Below, piece by piece: positions 3,306 to 37,396 of a stretch of 39,998 nt of DNA. The translations under genes were made by a program, and so were the position numbers. Positions within the stretch are counted from its first letter, which is position 1. Every line of letters begins with the position of its first letter. The notes beneath the pieces are model-generated. The model ran no database searches. It was not told the DNA's origin and was given only the letters and a program-made list of their open reading frames with translations. Location of the stretch: the IMG/VR virus record IMGVR_UViG_3300027908_000037, positions 1 to 39,998 of that record, one strand, 5' to 3'. Source of the DNA: a virus.

Positions 3306-3547
3306 GCGTCAAGTCAGCCGAACACGCAAGGACGCAGTTGACTTGGATGCTGCGAGGAAACGCCAAGAAAAAGGTGGATTCCCTGATCGATGCCGGTGTG
3401 ATTTTGTATAACGAAGGCGAATACAACGAGTTGCTGCTGTACCACGACGGGGAGTGCCCGGAATTGCAGGATGATAGCGAAGAGTGCACATGCGATCCGG
3501 ATGTGACAATGAATGGCATGCTTGTGAATTTGCCAAAGGTGCAATGA
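3302..3547 (+). CDS. Small acidic hypothetical protein, 81 aa
   Basis: I chose ATG 3302 because it overlaps the preceding stop (ATGA); the frame is open further upstream inside the previous gene. The N-terminal half is helical. The C-terminal half is acidic with three cysteines (GECPEL and ECTCDPD), perhaps a metal site. Function unknown. Confidence 0.6.
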   Translation: MSVKSAEHARTQLTWMLRGNAKKKVDSLIDAGVILYNEGEYNELLLYHDGECPELQDDSEECTCDPDVTMNGMLVNLPKVQ

Positions 3548-3849
3548 TCATGGCTAACGCTCGACAAGTCGCACGCTGGATCGTAGATGACATCTGCTAC
3601 GATTTGCACCTGCATGGGCATGAGTGCCCACCGATAGGAACAGTACTGCGATGGCTGGATATCGCGGAGGCAGGCGCGAAGAAGTATTCGTCTGAGGACG
3701 ACGAGGACATGCGGGCGTTGCATCACGTTAACGGTAATGTGTGTGACAACCGACCGGAGAATCTGCGAGTGGTGACGGTAAGCGAGAACATGCCGGTGCC
3801 GGTGCCGGTGCCGGTGAAGAAATCGAGACGCATAGGTAAGACAATATGA
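3544..3849 (+). CDS. Small HNH-like endonuclease-type protein, 101 aa
   Basis: ATG 3544 overlaps the preceding stop. Residues around 60-80 read HHVNGNVCDNRPENLRVVT, the core of the HNH motif of phage homing-type enzymes (His-His, then Asn-x3-Asp-Asn-Arg-x-Glu-Asn-Leu). The rest of a typical homing enzyme (zinc fingers, AP2 domain) is missing, so it may be a minimal nuclease or a domesticated remnant. The C-terminus carries a VPVPVPV repeat from tandem GGTGCC units. Confidence 0.6.
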   Translation: MIMANARQVARWIVDDICYDLHLHGHECPPIGTVLRWLDIAEAGAKKYSSEDDEDMRALHHVNGNVCDNRPENLRVVTVSENMPVPVPVPVKKSRRIGKTI

Positions 3850-3995
3850 CGCTCCGACTATACCCGGTGATCTACGGCGCGGTGTTTGGAGTATTGCTGG
3901 CGGTCTGTGGACTCCGCTGGGTCAAATGGAGGTTCTGGGTGTTGCTGGTAGGGTACGCGGTGCTGTCGAGCGTGGAGAAGCAAGTGGGACAATGA
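3846..3995 (+). CDS. Small membrane protein, 49 aa
   Basis: The ATG overlaps the previous stop. Two hydrophobic segments (residues about 6-23 and 28-42) flank a short basic loop (RWVKWR), giving a two-helix inner-membrane hairpin. The polar C-terminus ends on a stop that overlaps the next ATG. The gene context does not suggest a holin. Confidence 0.55.
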   Translation: MTLRLYPVIYGAVFGVLLAVCGLRWVKWRFWVLLVGYAVLSSVEKQVGQ

Positions 3996-4448: not shown

Positions 4449-5095
4449 CATTCACCAGCACATTCAAACGTCTGGACACAGTGATCCTCCCGGAGTTCGC
4501 GGGAGTCCGCATACAACTTATGCCCGTACAGATGCGGGATGTGAACAGTCTGCCGTTTGGACTCCGCGACTGGGATCGATTATTCCATCGACTGTGCTCG
4601 TTTGTGCCGGGTGTCAATGGGATTGCATATCTCACTATCGACCAGAGATGGACACTGGCTGGGGAGACGCATCGCAGGCCAGGATTACATGTCGATGGTA
4701 TGGGCTCATGGGGTGGAGGCGGCGGCTGGGGCGGGAATGGAATGATCACGGTGAGCAGTCACAGTGGGTGTGTCGCGTACAACCGGGAATTCACTGGGGA
4801 GCCACGCAGAGGTGTTGATTGCGGCGATCCCGATGAGGGTGACTGCGGGCATCTATGGGGACAGTGCGAGGGCACTGGCACGATGCTGGAGCCGAATGTT
4901 GCGTACTTGTGCAATCCGATGTGCGTGCATGAGTCAGTGCCGGTTGAGCAGGATTGCTTCCGGACGTTTGTGAGGTTGTCGCTGCCGAATGATGGAGTGT
5001 GGCCGAGGAACTGTACGCCGAATCCAAGAGGGATTGTGCCGGAGCACATTGGGGAAGCACGTAGAGTCGTGGGTAAGTATTCATACGCGGAATAA
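4445..5095 (+). CDS. Hypothetical protein with a possible Fe(II)/2-oxoglutarate oxygenase-like core, 216 aa
   Basis: It starts at GTG 4445, coupled to the previous gene. A His-x-Asp in RPGLHVDGMG (about residues 79-88) is followed by a glycine-rich loop. Further on come a distal His in CVHESVPV and an Arg in FRTFVRLSLP, about ten residues after it. This spacing matches the HxD...H...R metal and cosubstrate pattern of 2OG oxygenases. Nine or so cysteines in the middle are unusual for that fold. The assignment is inference and needs a profile search. It closes the coupled chain begun at 2947. Confidence 0.5.
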   Translation: MTFTSTFKRLDTVILPEFAGVRIQLMPVQMRDVNSLPFGLRDWDRLFHRLCSFVPGVNGIAYLTIDQRWTLAGETHRRPGLHVDGMGSWGGGGGWGGNGMITVSSHSGCVAYNREFTGEPRRGVDCGDPDEGDCGHLWGQCEGTGTMLEPNVAYLCNPMCVHESVPVEQDCFRTFVRLSLPNDGVWPRNCTPNPRGIVPEHIGEARRVVGKYSYAE

Positions 5096-15605: not shown

Positions 15606-15999
15606 ATGCCAGTCCACTCACACTATCATCGTCACCGGCGACCGCTACTGGACTGACTATGCATTTATTTTCGGTATTCTGCGCGATTGGCATAGTGAGT
15701 ATCATGTTGCTCTGCTGGTTCATGGTGCGTGCCGGGGTGCAGACGAAATCTGTGACCTTGCGGCCAGTGCGCTTTATATACCACGTAAGCCATACCCGGC
15801 AGAGTGGGACCGATTGGGTCTGGGCGCAGGACCGCAGCGGAATCGACTCATGCTGCATCAGCATCCCGAAGCACGAGTTGTACTGGCATTTCACGATCAT
15901 ATTGTGGCGAGCAAGGGCACAGCGGACATGGTGAGGGTGAGTGTCAGAATGGGAAAGCAAGTGGTGGTGTACTCGCATAATGGAGTCGAGTTCCTGTGA
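15568..15999 (+). CDS. DUF2493 (YspA/cpYpsA-related SLOG) family protein, 143 aa
   Basis: The first plausible start is ATG 15568, overlapping the preceding gene. Family hallmarks: IIVTGDRYWTD at the first strand, HGACRGADEICDLAA, KPYPAEWDRLGLGAGPQRNR, and a final strand VVVY after SKGTADMV. SLOG domains bind nucleotides or nucleotide-derived ligands; the exact ligand of this subfamily is not known to me. It is common in phages beside replication genes. The stop overlaps the polymerase GTG. Confidence 0.8.
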   Translation: MAKINIASDVASECQSTHTIIVTGDRYWTDYAFIFGILRDWHSEYHVALLVHGACRGADEICDLAASALYIPRKPYPAEWDRLGLGAGPQRNRLMLHQHPEARVVLAFHDHIVASKGTADMVRVSVRMGKQVVVYSHNGVEFL

Positions 16000-18900
16000 G
16001 CACCCAGCCGAACAGTCGTCCGAATAGTCGTCAGCCATCGTTTCGTCGGTACGATCCATTCGCGGGGCGTCCACTCAAATCCGTTCCCCCTGTCGGCCCT
16101 ATTCCGGCACGAGTGTACTTGATCGGGGAACGCCCCGGTGAAAATGAAGCGCGTAGGGGCTTGCCATTCATAGGTCCCGCTGGAAAATATCTGGACATTT
16201 GTTTAGCTGCTGCCAATATCGAGCGATCTCAGTGCAGAATAAATAATTTGGTCTCTACTTTTGCTGGGTACGGGAAACCGACGAAAGCAGAAATTGACCG
16301 CGACCATGATGCACTTGTAGCTGACATTTTGGAGTGCGATCCAGAAGTGATCGGATTAGTTGGCGGATGGTCGGTAGAGCATGTGCTTGGCGTCGAGCAC
16401 GCCGAGATGGAGAAGGTCCATGGAGTCCCACAGAGAGTCCCGGCACTGTTCGGTGGGGAATTGCCGCGTGACGGCGGGTGGACGGTGCTGCCACTATTGC
16501 ATCCGGCGGGAGCGACTCACTCACCAGACAGCCTCCCACTTATTCTTGACGATATCCTTCAGCTTGGCCGATTACTCGACCACGAGATCGCCGTGCGTGA
16601 GTCCGATCCATTCGCAGGCCGCGAGGACTACCGCGATTATCCTGTGAGCGGGCGCGGGGTGATCGTCCATAAGCCAGCCGGAGTCGATACCGAAGGCAGC
16701 CGTGTGCATCCATGGTGTATGACTGTATCGACTCGCCCCGGCACTGGGATGCTGTTCAAACCGGGCCAGCGAGTCACGTTCAAAGGCAAAGTTTACCTCT
16801 GGAATGCACTGCACGATCTCGGTGTGCTCAAAAATCTAGGTATCGAACTCGCCGACGACCAGTATGTCGATCTGATGATATTGGCATATAACCTGTGTGT
16901 TCATCCGCAGGGTCTCAAGCCATCTGCATACCGCAACTGTGGCATGCACCAAGACGACTACGACGATATCGTCCGCGAGGCTCGGCTCACCAAAGCCATG
17001 GATTACCTGCTGGCGGCGGCAGACAGAGACTGGCCGAAAGCCGAACCCCAGGTAATCGAGGATGCTGGCAAATATCGCGTGTACAAGCCGAAGTCGGTCA
17101 ACTTTCGGATTAAAAAGATTCTCGACGACTGGACGAAATGGCAGGTAGGCGGGAGAGAAGAAGAAGTCGATCTCAGGAAGAGATGGAGAGACATCGACGA
17201 CGTGATCAAAGCGCCAGTGATCGAGGCAATGGGAGAGCTACCCGATGCCACTTTGGATGATGTCCCGTATGAGCGGGCGAAGTTCTATGCGATCCGAGAC
17301 GCGGATGCCACGTTGCGCATGGCACCGATATTGGAGCAGAAGATCAAGGACATGGGACTGGAAGAGATAGCCGCCATCGACCACGCGATACTCCCGATGC
17401 TGGATTCAGCGCAGCAGAACGGAATCAGACTGGATGGACCGGAGTTTTGGAATGGCATCGAGTCTCAGTGTGAGTCGCAGATGTCACAGGCACAGTATCA
17501 GGTGTTCAAGCTGACTGGCGAGGATATCAATCCCGGATCGGGGGATCAGGTCGCGGCACTACTCTACGGTAAATTGGGACTGACGCCGCCGAAATATACA
17601 GACAGTGGTGAACGTGGCTCAGTCAACGCTGTGTGTCTGGAAGCGTTGCTCGGTCAGAATCCCGTCATCCAGCACATCATGGATTACACGGAAGCGTCGA
17701 AAATCCGAGGCACGTATGTGCTGCCACTGCGGAAATTGTGCATGCTCGGGGATCGCAGAGTACGGTCCACAATACGCAGCACACGCACCACCACTGGCCG
17801 ACTCGCTATGGCTGACCCTCCTCTCCACCAGATCCCGATTATGACTGACCTTGGCAAGCAGTTGCGTGGAGGATTTATCGCGGAATCAGGCCATGTACTC
17901 TACGACATCGACGTGAATCAGTTAGAAATGCGTATCATGGCGCATGACTCCCGTGATGAGGAGTTGTGCCGTCTGTTTTTTGAGAATAGAGATATTCATG
18001 CAGAGACGGCCTGTAGCATATTTTCGGTGCCCATGAATGCTTTGAATGTCGGTCCCACTGGAAAGGTTAACGATTACCGTCGTACGGTAGCAAAGCACTG
18101 CATTGCTGAAAATGAGCTAGTGCTCACAGATCAAGGTTTGATTCCAATTCAAAACATAACTGTACAACATAAACTATGGGATGGTGTAGAATGGGTGACA
18201 CACGGTGGCCTGATTGATCAAGGCATCCGAGAGGTGATCACTTATGAAGGACTCACAGCAACACCAGACCACGAAGTCGTCACGGAAACTGGCACCATCC
18301 GAACGTTTGGGGAAGTTGCATCCTCGCTGGATAGGCTCCATACAACCGGGGATGAAAGGGAGGCGCTTCGGACTCGCTATCGTAGTCTCCTCGAAAGTTC
18401 GGCGCAGGAACGGATACATAGAGCTGAAAGTGAAATGCACGAAGTGTGGCCGGATTTGGTGGATCATCAAGTCGAACCTAGTCAAGCCAGAGTTTCGCGG
18501 TTGCAAAAAGTGCAGTATGACGAAATCCAAACATCAATGGGTTTTAGGCAGAAGATACGATGCCATATTCCAACGCTGCAACACCCCTCACTATCGAGGC
18601 TACAAGAACTATGGGGCTCGCGGCATCAAGTGCCTGTTCAAATCACGCGCGGAGTTTGTGAAGTGGGTGGAGAAGAATTTGCCGCATCCCGATTACAAGG
18701 GCACAACGATAGGCCGGATCAACAACGATGGTCACTACAAGCCCGGCAATCTTCGACTCGAAACGACAGCAGAGCAGAATCTAAACAAGCGTACAACTTT
18801 GTGGATGACATACCATGGAGAGCGCATTCTGTTCCACGACTTCGACAGTCCGTACGAGGCGTCGTGGACATCTCGACTAGTGCATCGCGGAATGACCGGA

Positions 18901-19610
18901 GAGCAAATCATCACCGATGCGATAGCTCATACCAAAAAAGGGCATCGATCGAAAACGTGGCGGAAGTTGGCCGTATGGCTCAATTCGCACGGGTATACGA
19001 CATAGTGAACGCTGGACCTAGGCGATGTTTCACAGCGTCGGGAAAGCTGGTGCTTAACTGCGCTTTCGGCATAATCAATGGAATCACGGAACACGGCCTT
19101 GTCAACTACATGATTCTCAATCGATGCCGCAGGCCGGATGGGGAACCTTGGAACATTGACGACTGTTTGCAAATGAGAGAAGCGTGGTTTCAGAAGTATT
19201 CGGGTGTCAGGCGTTTTCAGAACGAATGTATCGATGAGACGAGGCAGACTGGGCTGGCACGGGAGACAATCGGTGGACGGATTATTTATTTGCCGCAGGT
19301 ATGGTCTCCGGATAAGCGAGTCCGAGAAAGTGCTGAGAGGATGAGTTACGTGATGCACACTCAGGCCGGCGGCCAGACATTGATCAAAAAGTGCATGGCG
19401 ATGGTCTGGCGGGAAGTGTGCAAAGTGCACCGAGAGGTGAAATTTCTCCTGCAAATGCATGATGAATTGTTGTTCGAGCTGCCTGACGATGAGAACTTGA
19501 AACGAGAAGTAGACCAGAGATGTGTCGATATCCTGTGCAATGAGGTGAAATTAAGAGTCCCGGTGCTGGCAGATGGCGGGTTTGGAAATTCTTGGCTCCA
19601 TGCGCACTGA
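15996..19610 (+). CDS. UDG / 3'-5' exonuclease / family A DNA polymerase with an intein, 1204 aa precursor
   Basis: It starts at GTG 15996. Residues about 35-190 are a family-4-like uracil-DNA glycosylase (IGERPGENEARRGLPFIGPAG, then LLHPAGATH). Residues 225-440 are a proofreading exonuclease with D231-T-E, N270-x3-D274 and Y431-x3-D435. The polymerase follows: motif A DVNQLEMRIMAH, the O-helix RRTVAKH at 695-701, then the intein at 702-1021, then CAFGIING, and motif C LLQMHDELLFE. The O-helix Tyr of FGxxYG is Asn here. Ligated exteins would give about 884 residues. A UDG-like domain on a PolA enzyme is known in phage SPO1. It is the likely replicase. Confidence 0.9.
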   Translation: MSTQPNSRPNSRQPSFRRYDPFAGRPLKSVPPVGPIPARVYLIGERPGENEARRGLPFIGPAGKYLDICLAAANIERSQCRINNLVSTFAGYGKPTKAEIDRDHDALVADILECDPEVIGLVGGWSVEHVLGVEHAEMEKVHGVPQRVPALFGGELPRDGGWTVLPLLHPAGATHSPDSLPLILDDILQLGRLLDHEIAVRESDPFAGREDYRDYPVSGRGVIVHKPAGVDTEGSRVHPWCMTVSTRPGTGMLFKPGQRVTFKGKVYLWNALHDLGVLKNLGIELADDQYVDLMILAYNLCVHPQGLKPSAYRNCGMHQDDYDDIVREARLTKAMDYLLAAADRDWPKAEPQVIEDAGKYRVYKPKSVNFRIKKILDDWTKWQVGGREEEVDLRKRWRDIDDVIKAPVIEAMGELPDATLDDVPYERAKFYAIRDADATLRMAPILEQKIKDMGLEEIAAIDHAILPMLDSAQQNGIRLDGPEFWNGIESQCESQMSQAQYQVFKLTGEDINPGSGDQVAALLYGKLGLTPPKYTDSGERGSVNAVCLEALLGQNPVIQHIMDYTEASKIRGTYVLPLRKLCMLGDRRVRSTIRSTRTTTGRLAMADPPLHQIPIMTDLGKQLRGGFIAESGHVLYDIDVNQLEMRIMAHDSRDEELCRLFFENRDIHAETACSIFSVPMNALNVGPTGKVNDYRRTVAKHCIAENELVLTDQGLIPIQNITVQHKLWDGVEWVTHGGLIDQGIREVITYEGLTATPDHEVVTETGTIRTFGEVASSLDRLHTTGDEREALRTRYRSLLESSAQERIHRAESEMHEVWPDLVDHQVEPSQARVSRLQKVQYDEIQTSMGFRQKIRCHIPTLQHPSLSRLQELWGSRHQVPVQITRGVCEVGGEEFAASRLQGHNDRPDQQRWSLQARQSSTRNDSRAESKQAYNFVDDIPWRAHSVPRLRQSVRGVVDISTSASRNDRRANHHRCDSSYQKRASIENVAEVGRMAQFARVYDIVNAGPRRCFTASGKLVLNCAFGIINGITEHGLVNYMILNRCRRPDGEPWNIDDCLQMREAWFQKYSGVRRFQNECIDETRQTGLARETIGGRIIYLPQVWSPDKRVRESAERMSYVMHTQAGGQTLIKKCMAMVWREVCKVHREVKFLLQMHDELLFELPDDENLKREVDQRCVDILCNEVKLRVPVLADGGFGNSWLHAH
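18099..19058 (+). mobile_element. Intein in the polymerase O-helix, with an out-of-frame endonuclease gene inside (320 aa)
   Basis: It begins at Cys (CIAENELVLTDQG, block A), has block B GLTATPDHEVV with the T-x-x-H motif, and ends with VYDIVNAGP (block F) and LVLN before the +1 Cys (block G). The penultimate His usual in block G is Leu. Insertion lies between RRTVAKH and CAFG, the most conserved part of the polymerase. Between about residue 80 and 285 the intein frame is open but reads Ser/Arg/Gln-rich filler; the real endonuclease is in the +1 frame. It should self-splice, unless the missing His slows asparagine cyclisation. Confidence 0.88.
18244..19005 (+). CDS. HNH homing endonuclease nested out of frame inside the intein, 253 aa
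   Basis: The frame is +1 relative to the polymerase. ATG 18244 is preceded by GAGGTGATC at 18231-18239, which matches the 16S anti-Shine-Dalgarno well. After an N-terminus that overlaps intein block B comes a phage zinc domain (GRRFGLAIVV, then KCTKCGRIWW and CKKC). The nuclease part follows: RCNTPHYRGYKNYGARGIKC and the HNH core IGRINNDGHYKPGNLRLET with AEQNLNKR. The usual Asp before RIN is Gly. It ends in TAG at 19003-19005 inside intein block F. ATG 18352 is an alternative start. Confidence 0.82.
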   Translation: MKDSQQHQTTKSSRKLAPSERLGKLHPRWIGSIQPGMKGRRFGLAIVVSSKVRRRNGYIELKVKCTKCGRIWWIIKSNLVKPEFRGCKKCSMTKSKHQWVLGRRYDAIFQRCNTPHYRGYKNYGARGIKCLFKSRAEFVKWVEKNLPHPDYKGTTIGRINNDGHYKPGNLRLETTAEQNLNKRTTLWMTYHGERILFHDFDSPYEASWTSRLVHRGMTGEQIITDAIAHTKKGHRSKTWRKLAVWLNSHGYTT

Positions 19611-20067
19611 CGCTTATTTCTCCCCCGACCGCGTATACCGCTACTGGCTGATCCGCGTTTGGGATGACTCGCTGCCAGTGAACTGCACATGCGGAGTGAA
19701 TCCGAGCACGGCAGATGAGAAGGAAAATGATCCTACCATTCGTAAAGACATCGGATTCTCCGAGCGGCAGGGATTCGGTGGGCTGCTCAAAGTGAATGTA
19801 TCAGCGTTCAGAAGCACTGATCCGCGTCCAGCCAGAGTCCATGCGATCGGCGCTGAGAACTCAGCGACCGACATACGCGCGTACTATGAATTGTTTGAGT
19901 GCCAACAGTTCATCGCCTGTTGGGGACGGAACGGCAGATACTTGCAATGGTACGTGGATATGCTGTTGCTGGAATTTACAGAGGCTGTGTGTTTTGGTCG
20001 GAACAGTGATGGCACGCCGAGGCACACGCTCATGTTGCCGTATACGACGCAACTGGAGGCGATGTAG
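19600..20067 (+). CDS. DUF1643-like protein, 155 aa
   Basis: I chose ATG 19600, overlapping the end of the polymerase gene; ATG 19573 is also possible. The pattern CGVNPSTADEKENDPTIRK, a 'GLLKVNVSAFRSTDP' region, and a later CWGRNGR match the DUF1643 family, often found in phages and of unknown chemistry. It ends in TAG, which overlaps the next GTG. Confidence 0.65.
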   Translation: MRTDAYFSPDRVYRYWLIRVWDDSLPVNCTCGVNPSTADEKENDPTIRKDIGFSERQGFGGLLKVNVSAFRSTDPRPARVHAIGAENSATDIRAYYELFECQQFIACWGRNGRYLQWYVDMLLLEFTEAVCFGRNSDGTPRHTLMLPYTTQLEAM

Positions 20068-24019: not shown

Positions 24020-24230
24020 TCGGCTGGTGGAGGAGCGGTACGGAGCGTTCTGTGCCGCCCCCAGTTTCAATCTCGCTCAGATGAAGCATTGCAAATCAGT
24101 ATCGGACTCGGGTTCGATTCCCGACACCTCCACCAATAACACTAACGGGGGTGCCAAGGTTTCGACGGTGCTGGTGACCGATGTGGATGGGTAGGGCTGG
24201 CGTGGCACCTTACGACACGCAAATGCAACC

Positions 24231-24299
24231 GCCAATAAAATGGCAAAGCTGTTCGTCATCCCGGCTCCGGCCCTGATGGTGACGGCTGCTGCGGCCTAA
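24231..24299 (+). other. tmRNA tag-peptide frame (ANKMAKLFVIPAPALMVTAAAA)
   Basis: The resume codon is probably GCC 24231; GCA 24225 is in frame and possible. The 22-residue tag is long but ends in hydrophobic residues and Ala-Ala, the form recognised by ClpXP-type proteases. The stop is TAA. Tagging stalled products would rescue ribosomes on broken messages during infection. Confidence 0.75.
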
Positions 24300-24319
24300 C
24301 GGTCAAAGCTCTGGGAGTG

Positions 24320-24347
24320 GCCCCGTCCCTAGTGAAATAAACGGGGC
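24320..24347 (+). terminator. Hairpin at the end of the tmRNA gene
   Basis: GCCCCGT (24320-24326) and ACGGGGC (24341-24347) form a 7-bp GC-rich stem with a 14-base loop, followed by AAATTATTCT. It may be a weak intrinsic terminator or a terminal helix of the tmRNA precursor. Confidence 0.5.
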
Positions 24348-24362
24348 AAATTATTCTCCCAC

Positions 24363-24821
24363 ATGCAAGTCGCCTCCGCATTGGCAGCAGTGCCGGTAAT
24401 CGCCCCGCGCAAGTCCTCTCGATGCCCGCATTGCAGACTGAATCAATTTGAACTGGCGAGCGGACTATGCCGGAGATGCCATGTGGAGATGCACGCCCCG
24501 GTCGAACCACTGCCAATCGTTGCGTTCGCGCCTGACCCTATACCTCTACCTGTACCTCTACCTCTATCTCCACCTGTCCTTCCATCCCATCCACTATCAT
24601 TCTGGGTTCCCGCAACACTGCTATTCTTGCGCTTGCGCTCCGGACAGTCCCAGAATCAGATCGCCAAACGCATCCCTACGCCGCGCACGTATATCAGCAA
24701 AGTCGAGAATGGCTGCCTGGATATAACATTGGTGTCGCTTGTGAGATACGCGGAGGCGCTGAATACAACGCCTTGGGATGTGCTTAGATTATGCGAGTGG
24801 TTGATGCAAGAGAGCGAGTAG
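24363..24821 (+). CDS. Zinc-ribbon plus XRE-type HTH regulator, 152 aa
   Basis: ATG 24363 follows the tmRNA hairpin. CPHC and CRRC near residues 21-41 form a zinc ribbon. A proline linker comes next, encoded by CTACCT-like tandem repeats (24538-24590). Residues about 90-145 are an XRE helix-turn-helix (GQSQNQIAKRIPTPRTYISK, then LVRYAEAL and PWDVLRL). It is the last plus-strand gene before the convergent late block, two bases from its neighbour. Confidence 0.7.
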   Translation: MQVASALAAVPVIAPRKSSRCPHCRLNQFELASGLCRRCHVEMHAPVEPLPIVAFAPDPIPLPVPLPLSPPVLPSHPLSFWVPATLLFLRLRSGQSQNQIAKRIPTPRTYISKVENGCLDITLVSLVRYAEALNTTPWDVLRLCEWLMQESE

Positions 24822-28047: not shown

Positions 28048-28512
28048 TCACTGCCACTCACCCGTGACGATCTGTGTTGCCAGTCTCTGCGCGCGTGCTG
28101 GTGATTGCACTTTCGCCCACTTCGAGTCCAGCATCTGTACTGACGCTTCTGGCCAGTTCTCATCCTGCATCGCGGCGAGTGCCTGCTTGAACTGAGCCAG
28201 CCCCTCGATTCCGAGTTGATAACACATATTCATCAGCACGCCGAACCGCACGCCATCCATTGTGCTCGTCCACGGGAATTGCACACGGATATCGGCAGCG
28301 GCCAGTGTAATGCGATTGACTGCCAGATACTCCATCTCGGCGTCAGTTAGTCCGCATCCACGACTAGCATCAATGCAGGTGCCGATGCCGACTGTGACGA
28401 ATCCCTTGACCATAGTCCCAGCGGAAATCGGAGCGCCATCGGCGTCATCGTATGCAGAGGATTTTTCGCCTTCATCTCGCTTGAGCTGATCGATGATATT
28501 GGTGATCGGCAT
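28048..28512 (-). CDS. T4-type lysozyme (GH24 endolysin), 154 aa
   Basis: ATG 28512 immediately follows a TAG that ends the previous frame, in the same reading frame. The catalytic arrangement Glu (KRDEGEKSSAYDDADG) then Gly-Thr (VTVGIGTCIDASRG) matches GH24 lysozymes, and MDGVRFGVLMNMCYQLG is the conserved middle helix. It cleaves peptidoglycan for release. No signal peptide, so a holin or the upstream domain must deliver it. Confidence 0.8.
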   Translation of the reverse strand: MPITNIIDQLKRDEGEKSSAYDDADGAPISAGTMVKGFVTVGIGTCIDASRGCGLTDAEMEYLAVNRITLAAADIRVQFPWTSTMDGVRFGVLMNMCYQLGIEGLAQFKQALAAMQDENWPEASVQMLDSKWAKVQSPARAQRLATQIVTGEWQ

Positions 28513-29421
28513 CTACTTCCCCAGCCTCGTTCCCGATAAGACAGAAATGATGTGCTCGAATCCCGTTCCCTCGTCGTAGTCGTTCCACGTCGGAATCGCC
28601 ACGTACTTGATGCTCGGCGGGATTGTTGCCACTTGGTCAAAGAACCAGTTGCCAGCTTGGTGATCCAGCCACCGTGTGGGGGTGGTTCCCGGCCAAGCCG
28701 ACAACAGCCAGTTACGGAGACCCTTCCATGCAGATTGCAGCGCCCCAGTCGGCGTAGGCTGTCCGCCATCGCAGAACATGATGTTCGCGCTGGCAATCTT
28801 CATCGTGGGCTTGGCGTGGTCGGCTTTGAGATCAGCCAATGCCAACGCAGGATTCGACGGATTATCACCTGTAACGATATTCGGCCACGAGTATCCCGTG
28901 TGCCATGAGAGGATGGGAATTGTCGGCACTGCTGCTTGCACCGTGGCCACATCGACTCCCGCCGAGGCGTTCATATCGAATTCCAGCACGTATTTCTCGG
29001 GCAGGTACGCCGGGGAGTTCAACACGCGCTGGCAGTCGGAATTCAACAACGCGCTGATAGTCGCTTGGGTGGGATTCGTCTGCTTCTCCGCGATCCACGG
29101 ATCGAGCATCAACCCGAACAGCAACTCGTGTTCCATGCAGCCTTCCCATATGTTCATCATCGCGTCGTGAAGGAATGGGTTTACAGTCGGCCCTTCCCAA
29201 TCCACAATGCAGCCCTTGATGCCAATGGCTTCCATGAAGTTGAGTTGATTGTTGATGACCACAGGATCATTGGACAGGTAGCGGTCGATGCGGTGCACTG
29301 TGGTGCCGTTGTTTTCGCCAAACCAGCCCTGCATGTGCGCGAGAGGTACGCCATTCCAGCCGACGATGTTCTTTTGCAGGGACTTTCCGAGATCGAGTGT
29401 TACTGGCGCGGTCATGGTCAT
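28513..29421 (-). CDS. Glycoside-hydrolase-like TIM barrel (GH71/GH99 type), 302 aa
   Basis: ATG 29421 overlaps the preceding stop. HMQGWFGENN near the start, KGCIVDWEGP in the middle and AIPTWNDYDEGTGFEH near the end match the barrel seen in GH71/GH99-type enzymes. It ends in TAG (28513-28515), directly followed in frame by the lysozyme ATG, so amber readthrough would give a 457-residue two-domain lysin. It probably degrades a cell-surface polysaccharide. Confidence 0.65.
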   Translation of the reverse strand: MTMTAPVTLDLGKSLQKNIVGWNGVPLAHMQGWFGENNGTTVHRIDRYLSNDPVVINNQLNFMEAIGIKGCIVDWEGPTVNPFLHDAMMNIWEGCMEHELLFGLMLDPWIAEKQTNPTQATISALLNSDCQRVLNSPAYLPEKYVLEFDMNASAGVDVATVQAAVPTIPILSWHTGYSWPNIVTGDNPSNPALALADLKADHAKPTMKIASANIMFCDGGQPTPTGALQSAWKGLRNWLLSAWPGTTPTRWLDHQAGNWFFDQVATIPPSIKYVAIPTWNDYDEGTGFEHIISVLSGTRLGK

Positions 29422-37157: not shown

Positions 37158-37234
37158 TGGAGCACCGTGCGGGACTCGAACCCGCGACCGTTGGAATTAG
37201 AATCCACTGCTCTGCCAGTCTGAGCTAACGGTGC
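37158..37234 (-). tRNA. tRNA with anticodon CUA (amber suppressor type)
   Basis: Full cloverleaf on the minus strand: acceptor GCACCGT/ACGGTGC, D stem GCTC/GAGC with GG in the loop, anticodon stem GTGGA/TCCAA (one G-A mismatch at the outer pair), loop TTCTAAT giving CTA, variable CGGTC, T-arm GCGGG-TTCGAGT-CCCGC, discriminator T, encoded CCA. It should read UAG. The charged amino acid is unknown. Confidence 0.85.
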
Positions 37235-37245
37235 CCGTCATAAAA

Positions 37246-37321
37246 TGGAGCCGAGGGATGGAATTGAACCACCGACCTCTCTGCTAAAAGCAGAGTGCTC
37301 TGGCAACTGAGCTACCTCGGC
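37246..37321 (-). tRNA. tRNA-Lys (anticodon UUU)
   Basis: Acceptor GCCGAGG/CCTCGGC, D stem GCTC/GAGC, anticodon stem CTCTG/CAGAG with loop CTTTTAG, T-arm GGTGG-TTCAATT-CCATC, encoded CCA. Discriminator is T rather than the A usual for lysine tRNA, and the D-loop lacks the GG pair, so charging may be altered. Confidence 0.88.
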
Positions 37322-37322
37322 T

Positions 37323-37396
37323 TGGCACTCGCGGCTGGCAGTGAGCCAGCATCTCCGGCTTTAGAGGCCGATGCTCTCCGATTGAGCTACGCGAGT
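37323..37396 (-). tRNA. Second tRNA with anticodon CUA (amber suppressor type)
   Basis: Acceptor ACTCGCG/CGCGAGT, D stem GCTC/GAGC with loop AATCGGA, anticodon stem TCGGC/GCCGG, loop CTCTAAA giving CTA (the loop also found in supF), four-base variable region, T-stem GCTGG/CCAGC with an unusual loop CTCACTG in place of the TTC-type loop, discriminator G, encoded CCA. The odd T-loop may affect stability. Confidence 0.78.

Follow-up and report, generated by a model that had tools for sequence, protein, structure and literature searches.

A DNA polymerase intein with an HNH endonuclease-like gene nested out of frame, and its relatives in phages and prophages

In textbook inteins, such as the PI-SceI VMA intein, the endonuclease is an in-frame domain of the intein. 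A viral locus in IMG/VR record IMGVR_UViG_3300027908_000037 raises the question of how a splicing element and a nuclease can instead share the same DNA in two reading frames, and which of the two frames selection acts on. The window, that is, the whole stretch of 39,998 nucleotides that was analysed, encodes on its plus strand a DNA polymerase I-type precursor (PolA; positions 15996 to 19610; 1204 amino acids; PF00476, E 3.3e-72), whose open frame is interrupted by an intein and begins with a UDG-like domain (PF03167, E 4.3e-19). The reading preferred here, to which a probability of about 0.85 is assigned, is that of a mobile intein in which two genes overprint each other, one for the splicing intein and one for a separately initiated HNH endonuclease that would home both parts.

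The intein spans 320 amino acids of the polymerase frame on the plus strand (18099 to 19058), exactly the interval in which the initial annotation had placed the intein blocks. The codon for Cys1 (18099-18101), that for the terminal Asn320 (19056-19058) and that for the Cys+1 nucleophile (19059-19061) all lie in the PolA frame, as expected for a class 1 intein. The N-terminal part of the splicing domain, with blocks A and B (18099 to 18338), includes the TxxH motif T55..H58 (18261-18272). C1, T55 and H58 are invariant across 40 relatives, and Cys1 is present in all 116 relatives that were scored. The C-terminal part, with blocks F and G (18984 to 19058), ends in VLN/C and has Arg in place of the assisting block F His and Leu in place of the penultimate His. 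Both residues are also missing from the relative L001. Relatives of the L006 and L009 types retain the two His, and the penultimate His is present in 77 of 116 relatives. Neither His strictly defines an intein, and inteins lacking them are known; their absence here means that splicing of the window intein could be slow or be helped by compensating residues.

An AlphaFold2 model of the intein-frame reading has the Hint fold of a splicing domain, with pLDDT values of 96-98 for residues 1-80, 86 for residues 291-300 and 96 for residues 301-320, and values mostly of 40-60 between. The top Foldseek matches of this model are the DnaX, DnaE, DnaB and RecA inteins; in addition, a profile of 40 inteins matched almost exclusively inteins among PDB sequences (best E 0.0032). 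On the strength of these motifs and models, the insert probably self-splices. The low-confidence stretch between the two halves (18345 to 18968, plus strand) is open, nearly unconstrained and predicted to be disordered, and it contains no stops in any relative. Its earlier description as about 200 codons of compositional filler agrees with this model and with its hydropathy, which is discussed below.

An intein-free allele is available for comparison. In the IMG/VR relative L002, whose polymerase is 79% identical to that of the window over the best segment, an empty site reading VAKHAAFG lies exactly at the insertion point; once the 960-nt insert is taken out, the joined flanks of the window align to L002 without gaps over 800 nt. 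No co-conversion trace, sought as raised identity around the insertion between the window and L002, was found. Among the relatives, insertions occupy several registers of polymerase motif B and also the motif-C region, and the flanks of some other sites look like helicase motifs, for example QIVGRGTR..CLVLDYGDN.

The second gene lies in the +1 frame on the same strand (18244 to 19005; 253 amino acids; stop codon TAG followed directly by TGA), at the position and in the frame first proposed for it. A Shine-Dalgarno-like GAGGTGA (18231 to 18237, plus strand) falls within the intein codons for REVI and is separated by six bases from the ATG at 18244; it occurs at the same place in the relatives L004, L006 and L009. 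Two PHROG profiles for HNH endonucleases match the product, phrog_3377 at E 5.5e-24 and phrog_374 at E 1.3e-18, so that the objection foreseen in the initial annotation, a +1 frame with no homologue by profile search, fails. The core of the product (18349 to 18813, plus strand), itself matched by a profile, contains a four-Cys zinc motif (C65, C68, C87 and C90), conserved in at least 90% of relatives, and the HNH-type motif YGARGI..IGRINNDGHYKPGN. The AlphaFold2 model has a mean pLDDT of 88.7, with low confidence in the first 30 residues, and its matches among viral models are mostly phage HNH-type proteins, named HNH endonuclease. No HNH match was found in Pfam, and PDB sequence searches returned nothing with a 5-sequence HNH alignment and nothing relevant with a 49-sequence alignment; by fold, no PDB entry matched the HNH model at E<=0.001. 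As Pfam and the PDB give no HNH match, nuclease catalysis rests on the PHROG annotation and the motif, and the nested gene is best described as HNH-endonuclease-like, encoding a putative homing endonuclease.

Two tRNAs with CTA anticodons are also encoded in the window. Amber recoding was considered as a cause of the open frames and rejected, since the standard code already leaves both the polymerase frame and the nested frame open; reading TAG as Q lengthens the nested ORF by one codon.

The arrangement is not confined to this contig. Scans with the intein and HNH alignments yielded 80 intein loci and 80 HNH loci in viral contigs and 43 intein loci in genome contigs. The viral list comprises the best 80 of 346, so that rarer layouts could be missed there, and the complete genome-contig list of 43 gives the same picture. 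With profiles of the N block, the C block and the HNH core, 131 distinct inteins were classified: the HNH gene is at +1 in 115, one of them interrupted (L112), at +2 in one (L132) and in the intein frame in none. A further 14 have an open frame with no detected HNH gene, and one pairing of HNH gene and intein is probably spurious (L102). Overall, the intein frame is open in 130 of the 131. Host records with a named phylum cover eight bacterial phyla, seven of which have nested forms. Named phages with a +1 nested HNH gene are Gardnerella vB_Gva_AB1, Streptococcus Javan phages, Shewanella SFCi1, APSE-1, APSE-2 and Caulobacter GB2A, and those with a +2 nested gene are a Salmonella phage (L010), Pseudomonas MR14, Vibrio 97.13 and EBPR siphovirus 2. 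The out-of-step layout of HNH gene and intein is thus a conserved design in more than 100 related phage and prophage sequences, mostly missed by annotation.

Selection on the two frames was examined by permuting synonymous codons within each nested HNH core, keeping the protein and its codon usage. The window copy has no intein-frame stops where 9.2 are expected, and none of 300 permutations was open. Across 29 nested HNH clusters (<50% identity) there are again no intein-frame stops, against 252 +/- 11 expected, and across 88 clusters at 95% identity none against 753 +/- 19. The third frame is near expectation, with 325 stops in the 29 clusters (310 expected) and 1005 in the 88 clusters (946 expected). 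In 55 control HNH genes for which no intein was detected nearby, 775 stops fall in the corresponding frame, and not one of these genes has it open. The +2 class and the APSE, SFCi1 and Caulobacter set likewise have no stops, against 1.0-7.1 expected per gene. The suggestion that an endonuclease gene is nested out of frame in an intein, with selection holding both frames open, is strongly supported.

Substitutions reveal where each frame is constrained. In 42 independent pairs, changes at HNH codon positions 1, 2 and 3 number 1408, 1030 and 2719, and in 39 of the 42 the same bases are better conserved when translated as HNH than when translated as intein. Counted instead at intein codon positions 1/2/3, substitutions are 315/215/689 upstream of the nested ATG, 79/68/187 in the block B overlap, 165/103/172 between that overlap and the HNH core, 2579/1355/1028 in the core, 154/130/133, with no clear preference, in the ten codons preceding block F, and 126/82/257 in blocks F and G. 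These counts show that the constraint switches frame at the block boundaries. Within the core it is the HNH frame that is under purifying selection, and within the splicing blocks it is the intein frame, so that each protein is constrained where it folds. The N-terminal tail of the nested protein, overprinted on block B (18244 to 18345, plus strand), is predicted to be disordered (pLDDT 48-56), and its substitutions follow the intein frame. The initial annotation had called the overlaps with blocks B and F true dual coding. This claim is not supported: substitutions accumulate at intein third positions in both blocks, the ten codons before block F have no clear preference, and about the first 30 nested residues are predicted to be disordered.

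The mean hydropathy of the filler is that of stop-free synonymous permutations (p 0.68), and its proline and hydrophobic content is only slightly shifted; selection on filler composition was accordingly rejected. In combination, the absence of stops and this hydropathy indicate that the intein frame is kept open and is otherwise nearly free. The two genes thus overprint each other, and in any given stretch one of them is filler.

These data bear on how the pair arose. In an HNH tree from a quick search with one support measure, a main +1 clade unites 35 nested rows with one row lacking a detected intein (support 99), a second +1 clade of eight rows (APSE, SFCi1 and Caulobacter GB2A among them; support 99) lies among HNH genes without detectable inteins, and the +2 genes form a clade of five rows (support 98). 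Given the starred branches of this tree, the +1 label must have changed at least twice. In the tree of splicing domains, inteins without HNH are scattered, and some adjoin nested ones (L118 beside L009), suggesting that at least some of them are losses. Of the earlier proposal that an endonuclease gene invaded a mini-intein, the out-of-frame nesting holds; a pre-existing mini-intein is plausible as the target, with some HNH-less inteins, such as L118, looking like deletion derivatives. Furthermore, distances between HNH genes are correlated with those between splicing domains (Mantel r 0.62, 0 of 2000 permutations), supporting co-inheritance of the two parts and, with it, the view that they move together. 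The ATG and Shine-Dalgarno sequence of the nested gene coincide with codons for the intein motif REVI.Y[ED]G, and inteins that lack an HNH gene have them too. An initiation signal already present in the intein may thus have made it easier for an HNH gene to become established.

From the observed reading frames, their offset, stop avoidance, selection, the empty site and recurrence, a mechanism can be proposed whose inferred steps are splicing, separate initiation, cleavage and homing. The polymerase frame would encode a splicing domain (blocks A-B and F-G) whose halves are separated by unstructured filler of about 200 codons. Translation would cover the polymerase ORF from end to end, and the 320-residue insert would excise itself, joining VAKH to CAFGII and restoring the polymerase. 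On the same mRNA, ribosomes may also begin at the internal ATG beside block B and make a free zinc-ribbon/HNH endonuclease from the +1 frame; synthesis of both proteins from one mRNA is the most likely arrangement. A start preceded by a Shine-Dalgarno sequence of at least five bases was found in the HNH frame of 59 of 85 clusters, 37 of them at the position seen in the window, versus 10 of 85 for the third frame. The endonuclease would then cut polymerase alleles that lack the intein, at the point where it inserts, and repair templated by a copy with the intein would spread the splicing domain and the endonuclease together. Such cleavage of empty alleles and homing are consistent with the empty site in one relative and with the patchy occurrence of the element.

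Several other explanations of the locus can be weighed against this proposal. The window is a single metagenomic contig, and long overlapping ORFs arise by chance in GC-balanced DNA, where many were listed, so that the HNH sequence might truly belong to the intein frame or the second open frame might be a compositional accident. However, the same offset recurs in the 115 inteins with a +1 gene, including those of genome-sequenced isolates and named phages, and the missing stops and closed control frames described above leave chance next to no room. As the offset is conserved across independent assemblies at more than 100 distinct loci, a frameshift or sequencing error near 18340 or 18970 was rejected. 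The insert might also be a group I type intron removed as RNA, with no intein involved. HNH genes are frequent in phage group I introns (PMC11855218), in which the endonuclease gene is likewise independent of the host frame within a self-splicing element, and the ShiLan insert discussed below combines an out-of-frame HNH with no intein. Yet an intron needs no open host frame, and here stops are absent; the splicing residues are in frame and the model has an intein fold, and covariance models from Rfam gave no match at E<=1 in 17500-19700. An intron origin is extremely unlikely.

The remaining alternatives accept the intein and concern the nested ORF. Homing endonucleases usually decay once fixed, and the HNH frame of one relative (L007) has a stop, as might be expected if the ORF were an unexpressed, decaying relic and only the intein mattered now. 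Against this, most changes fall at the third position of HNH codons, only one of 88 nested cores is broken, and the window and L001 are 98% identical in the HNH protein versus 93% in the intein frame, making a relic very unlikely. Translation of the nuclease as a frameshift fusion to the N-extein and N-intein, rather than from its own ATG, is also unlikely. Frameshifting is common in phages, and about one third of clusters have no start with a strong Shine-Dalgarno sequence in the HNH frame, so that other initiation must occur there. On the other hand, the signal and ATG lie at the same place in distant relatives, starts of this kind are enriched in the HNH frame, and a search of the polymerase frame for heptamer signals only found no X_XXY_YYZ between 18099 and 18400. 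The two-gene intein with separate initiation is therefore preferred.

Among the closest described counterparts of this intein are the ShiLan domain and the Pacc40 gp60 insert of actinophage DNA methylases; the ShiLan domain is an HNH gene out of frame in a methylase without an intein or intron (Arsenault et al., 2025, PMC11855218). These inserts share with the window intein the out-of-frame HNH, the open host frame and a patchy distribution. In contrast to the window, they have a methylase host and no intein motifs or splicing domain, and the authors found no Shine-Dalgarno sequence (PMC11855218); the window has a complete set of splicing blocks around the nested gene. The same authors cite a preprint by Gosselin et al. 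(bioRxiv 10.1101/2025.01.02.630785) on actinobacteriophage inteins with non-canonical architecture (PMC11855218). Canonical homing inteins, such as the dCTP deaminase intein of cyanophage CL131 with HintN plus HNH_3 (PMC6293099), likewise unite a splicing domain and an endonuclease in a single mobile element that occupies a conserved motif of its host. In these, however, the endonuclease forms part of the intein polypeptide, whereas the window encodes it in a different frame, as a gene of its own, and the intein polypeptide carries filler. No description of an out-of-frame endonuclease within an intein was found in the literature searched, which covers few subscription journals and preprints and is no proof of novelty. 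Judging by its title and by the way in which it is cited, the Gosselin et al. preprint may describe related arrangements.

On balance, we lean towards regarding out-of-frame nested endonuclease genes as a recurrent architectural class of inteins that has mostly been overlooked so far and that arose by more than one acquisition, at two offsets. Along the nested gene, the intein frame would be selected for little other than freedom from stops, and the nuclease would be made from the host mRNA as a separate protein, its yield uncoupled from that of the host protein. Homing inteins would thus have an additional means of hosting a nuclease, one that is coupled neither to host-protein synthesis nor to intein folding. 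Additionally, two genes that share DNA and are constrained in alternation, where the overprinted protein need only stay open, provide more than 100 natural loci for studying the origin and persistence of overlapping genes.

Nesting also explains conflicting annotation. The nested gene is unannotated in the annotated records that were examined, with the exception of APSE-1. There, the P45 polymerase contains an annotated ORF, P46, which spans a C-terminal portion of the HNH frame. Such genes are easily lost when a gene caller penalises complete overlap, and more of them therefore probably await recognition. The record of Salmonella phage LPSE1 lists no polymerase CDS and contains LPSE_00001, an ORF of 247 aa that matches the window HNH protein by predicted fold; judged from its length and fold match, LPSE_00001 is probably a nested gene. 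The APSE-1 and LPSE1 entries were deposited without being named as intein-nested endonuclease genes, and the window HNH protein is matched by 145 Salmonella records.

Two annotated open reading frames in related phages look like the nested HNH gene: P46 of APSE-1, which lies within the P45 polymerase gene (3431-3853 of locus L216), and LPSE_00001 of Salmonella phage LPSE1 (450-1193 of locus L225). The records of these phages do not identify either frame as a nested HNH gene. In Streptococcus phage PhiSdyV1524 (locus L007), a stop codon at 4586-4588 interrupts the nested HNH frame while the intein frame is uninterrupted, which is the pattern predicted for a nuclease that degenerates earlier than its intein. 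Five further related loci (L018, L052, L054, L141 and L132) each carry two inteins of the same family as that in the window; the polymerase sites of the paired inteins differ in several cases, and some members of the pairs lack the HNH.

At its start (15996-16530, plus strand), the window polymerase frame encodes a domain resembling family-4 uracil-DNA glycosylases, matched by PF03167 at residues 31-177 (E 4.3e-19), and the polymerase of the relative L004 appears to have such a domain likewise.

On the minus strand, at 37158-37396, ARAGORN found a cluster in which a tRNA-Lys(TTT) gene is flanked on each side by a tRNA gene with the anticodon CTA, labeled tRNA-Pyl. These two tRNAs are possible amber suppressors. 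Few long frames in the window gain length when TAG is read as Q; under this reading, the minus-strand frames 28048-28512 and 28513-29421 would become one. The viral contig also encodes a permuted tmRNA (24043-24390, plus strand), detected by Rfam (RF04321, tmRNA_permuted, 24075-24299, 85.8 bits, E 3e-15) and called by ARAGORN as tmRNA* with the tag peptide ATANKMAKLFVIPAPALMVTAAAA.
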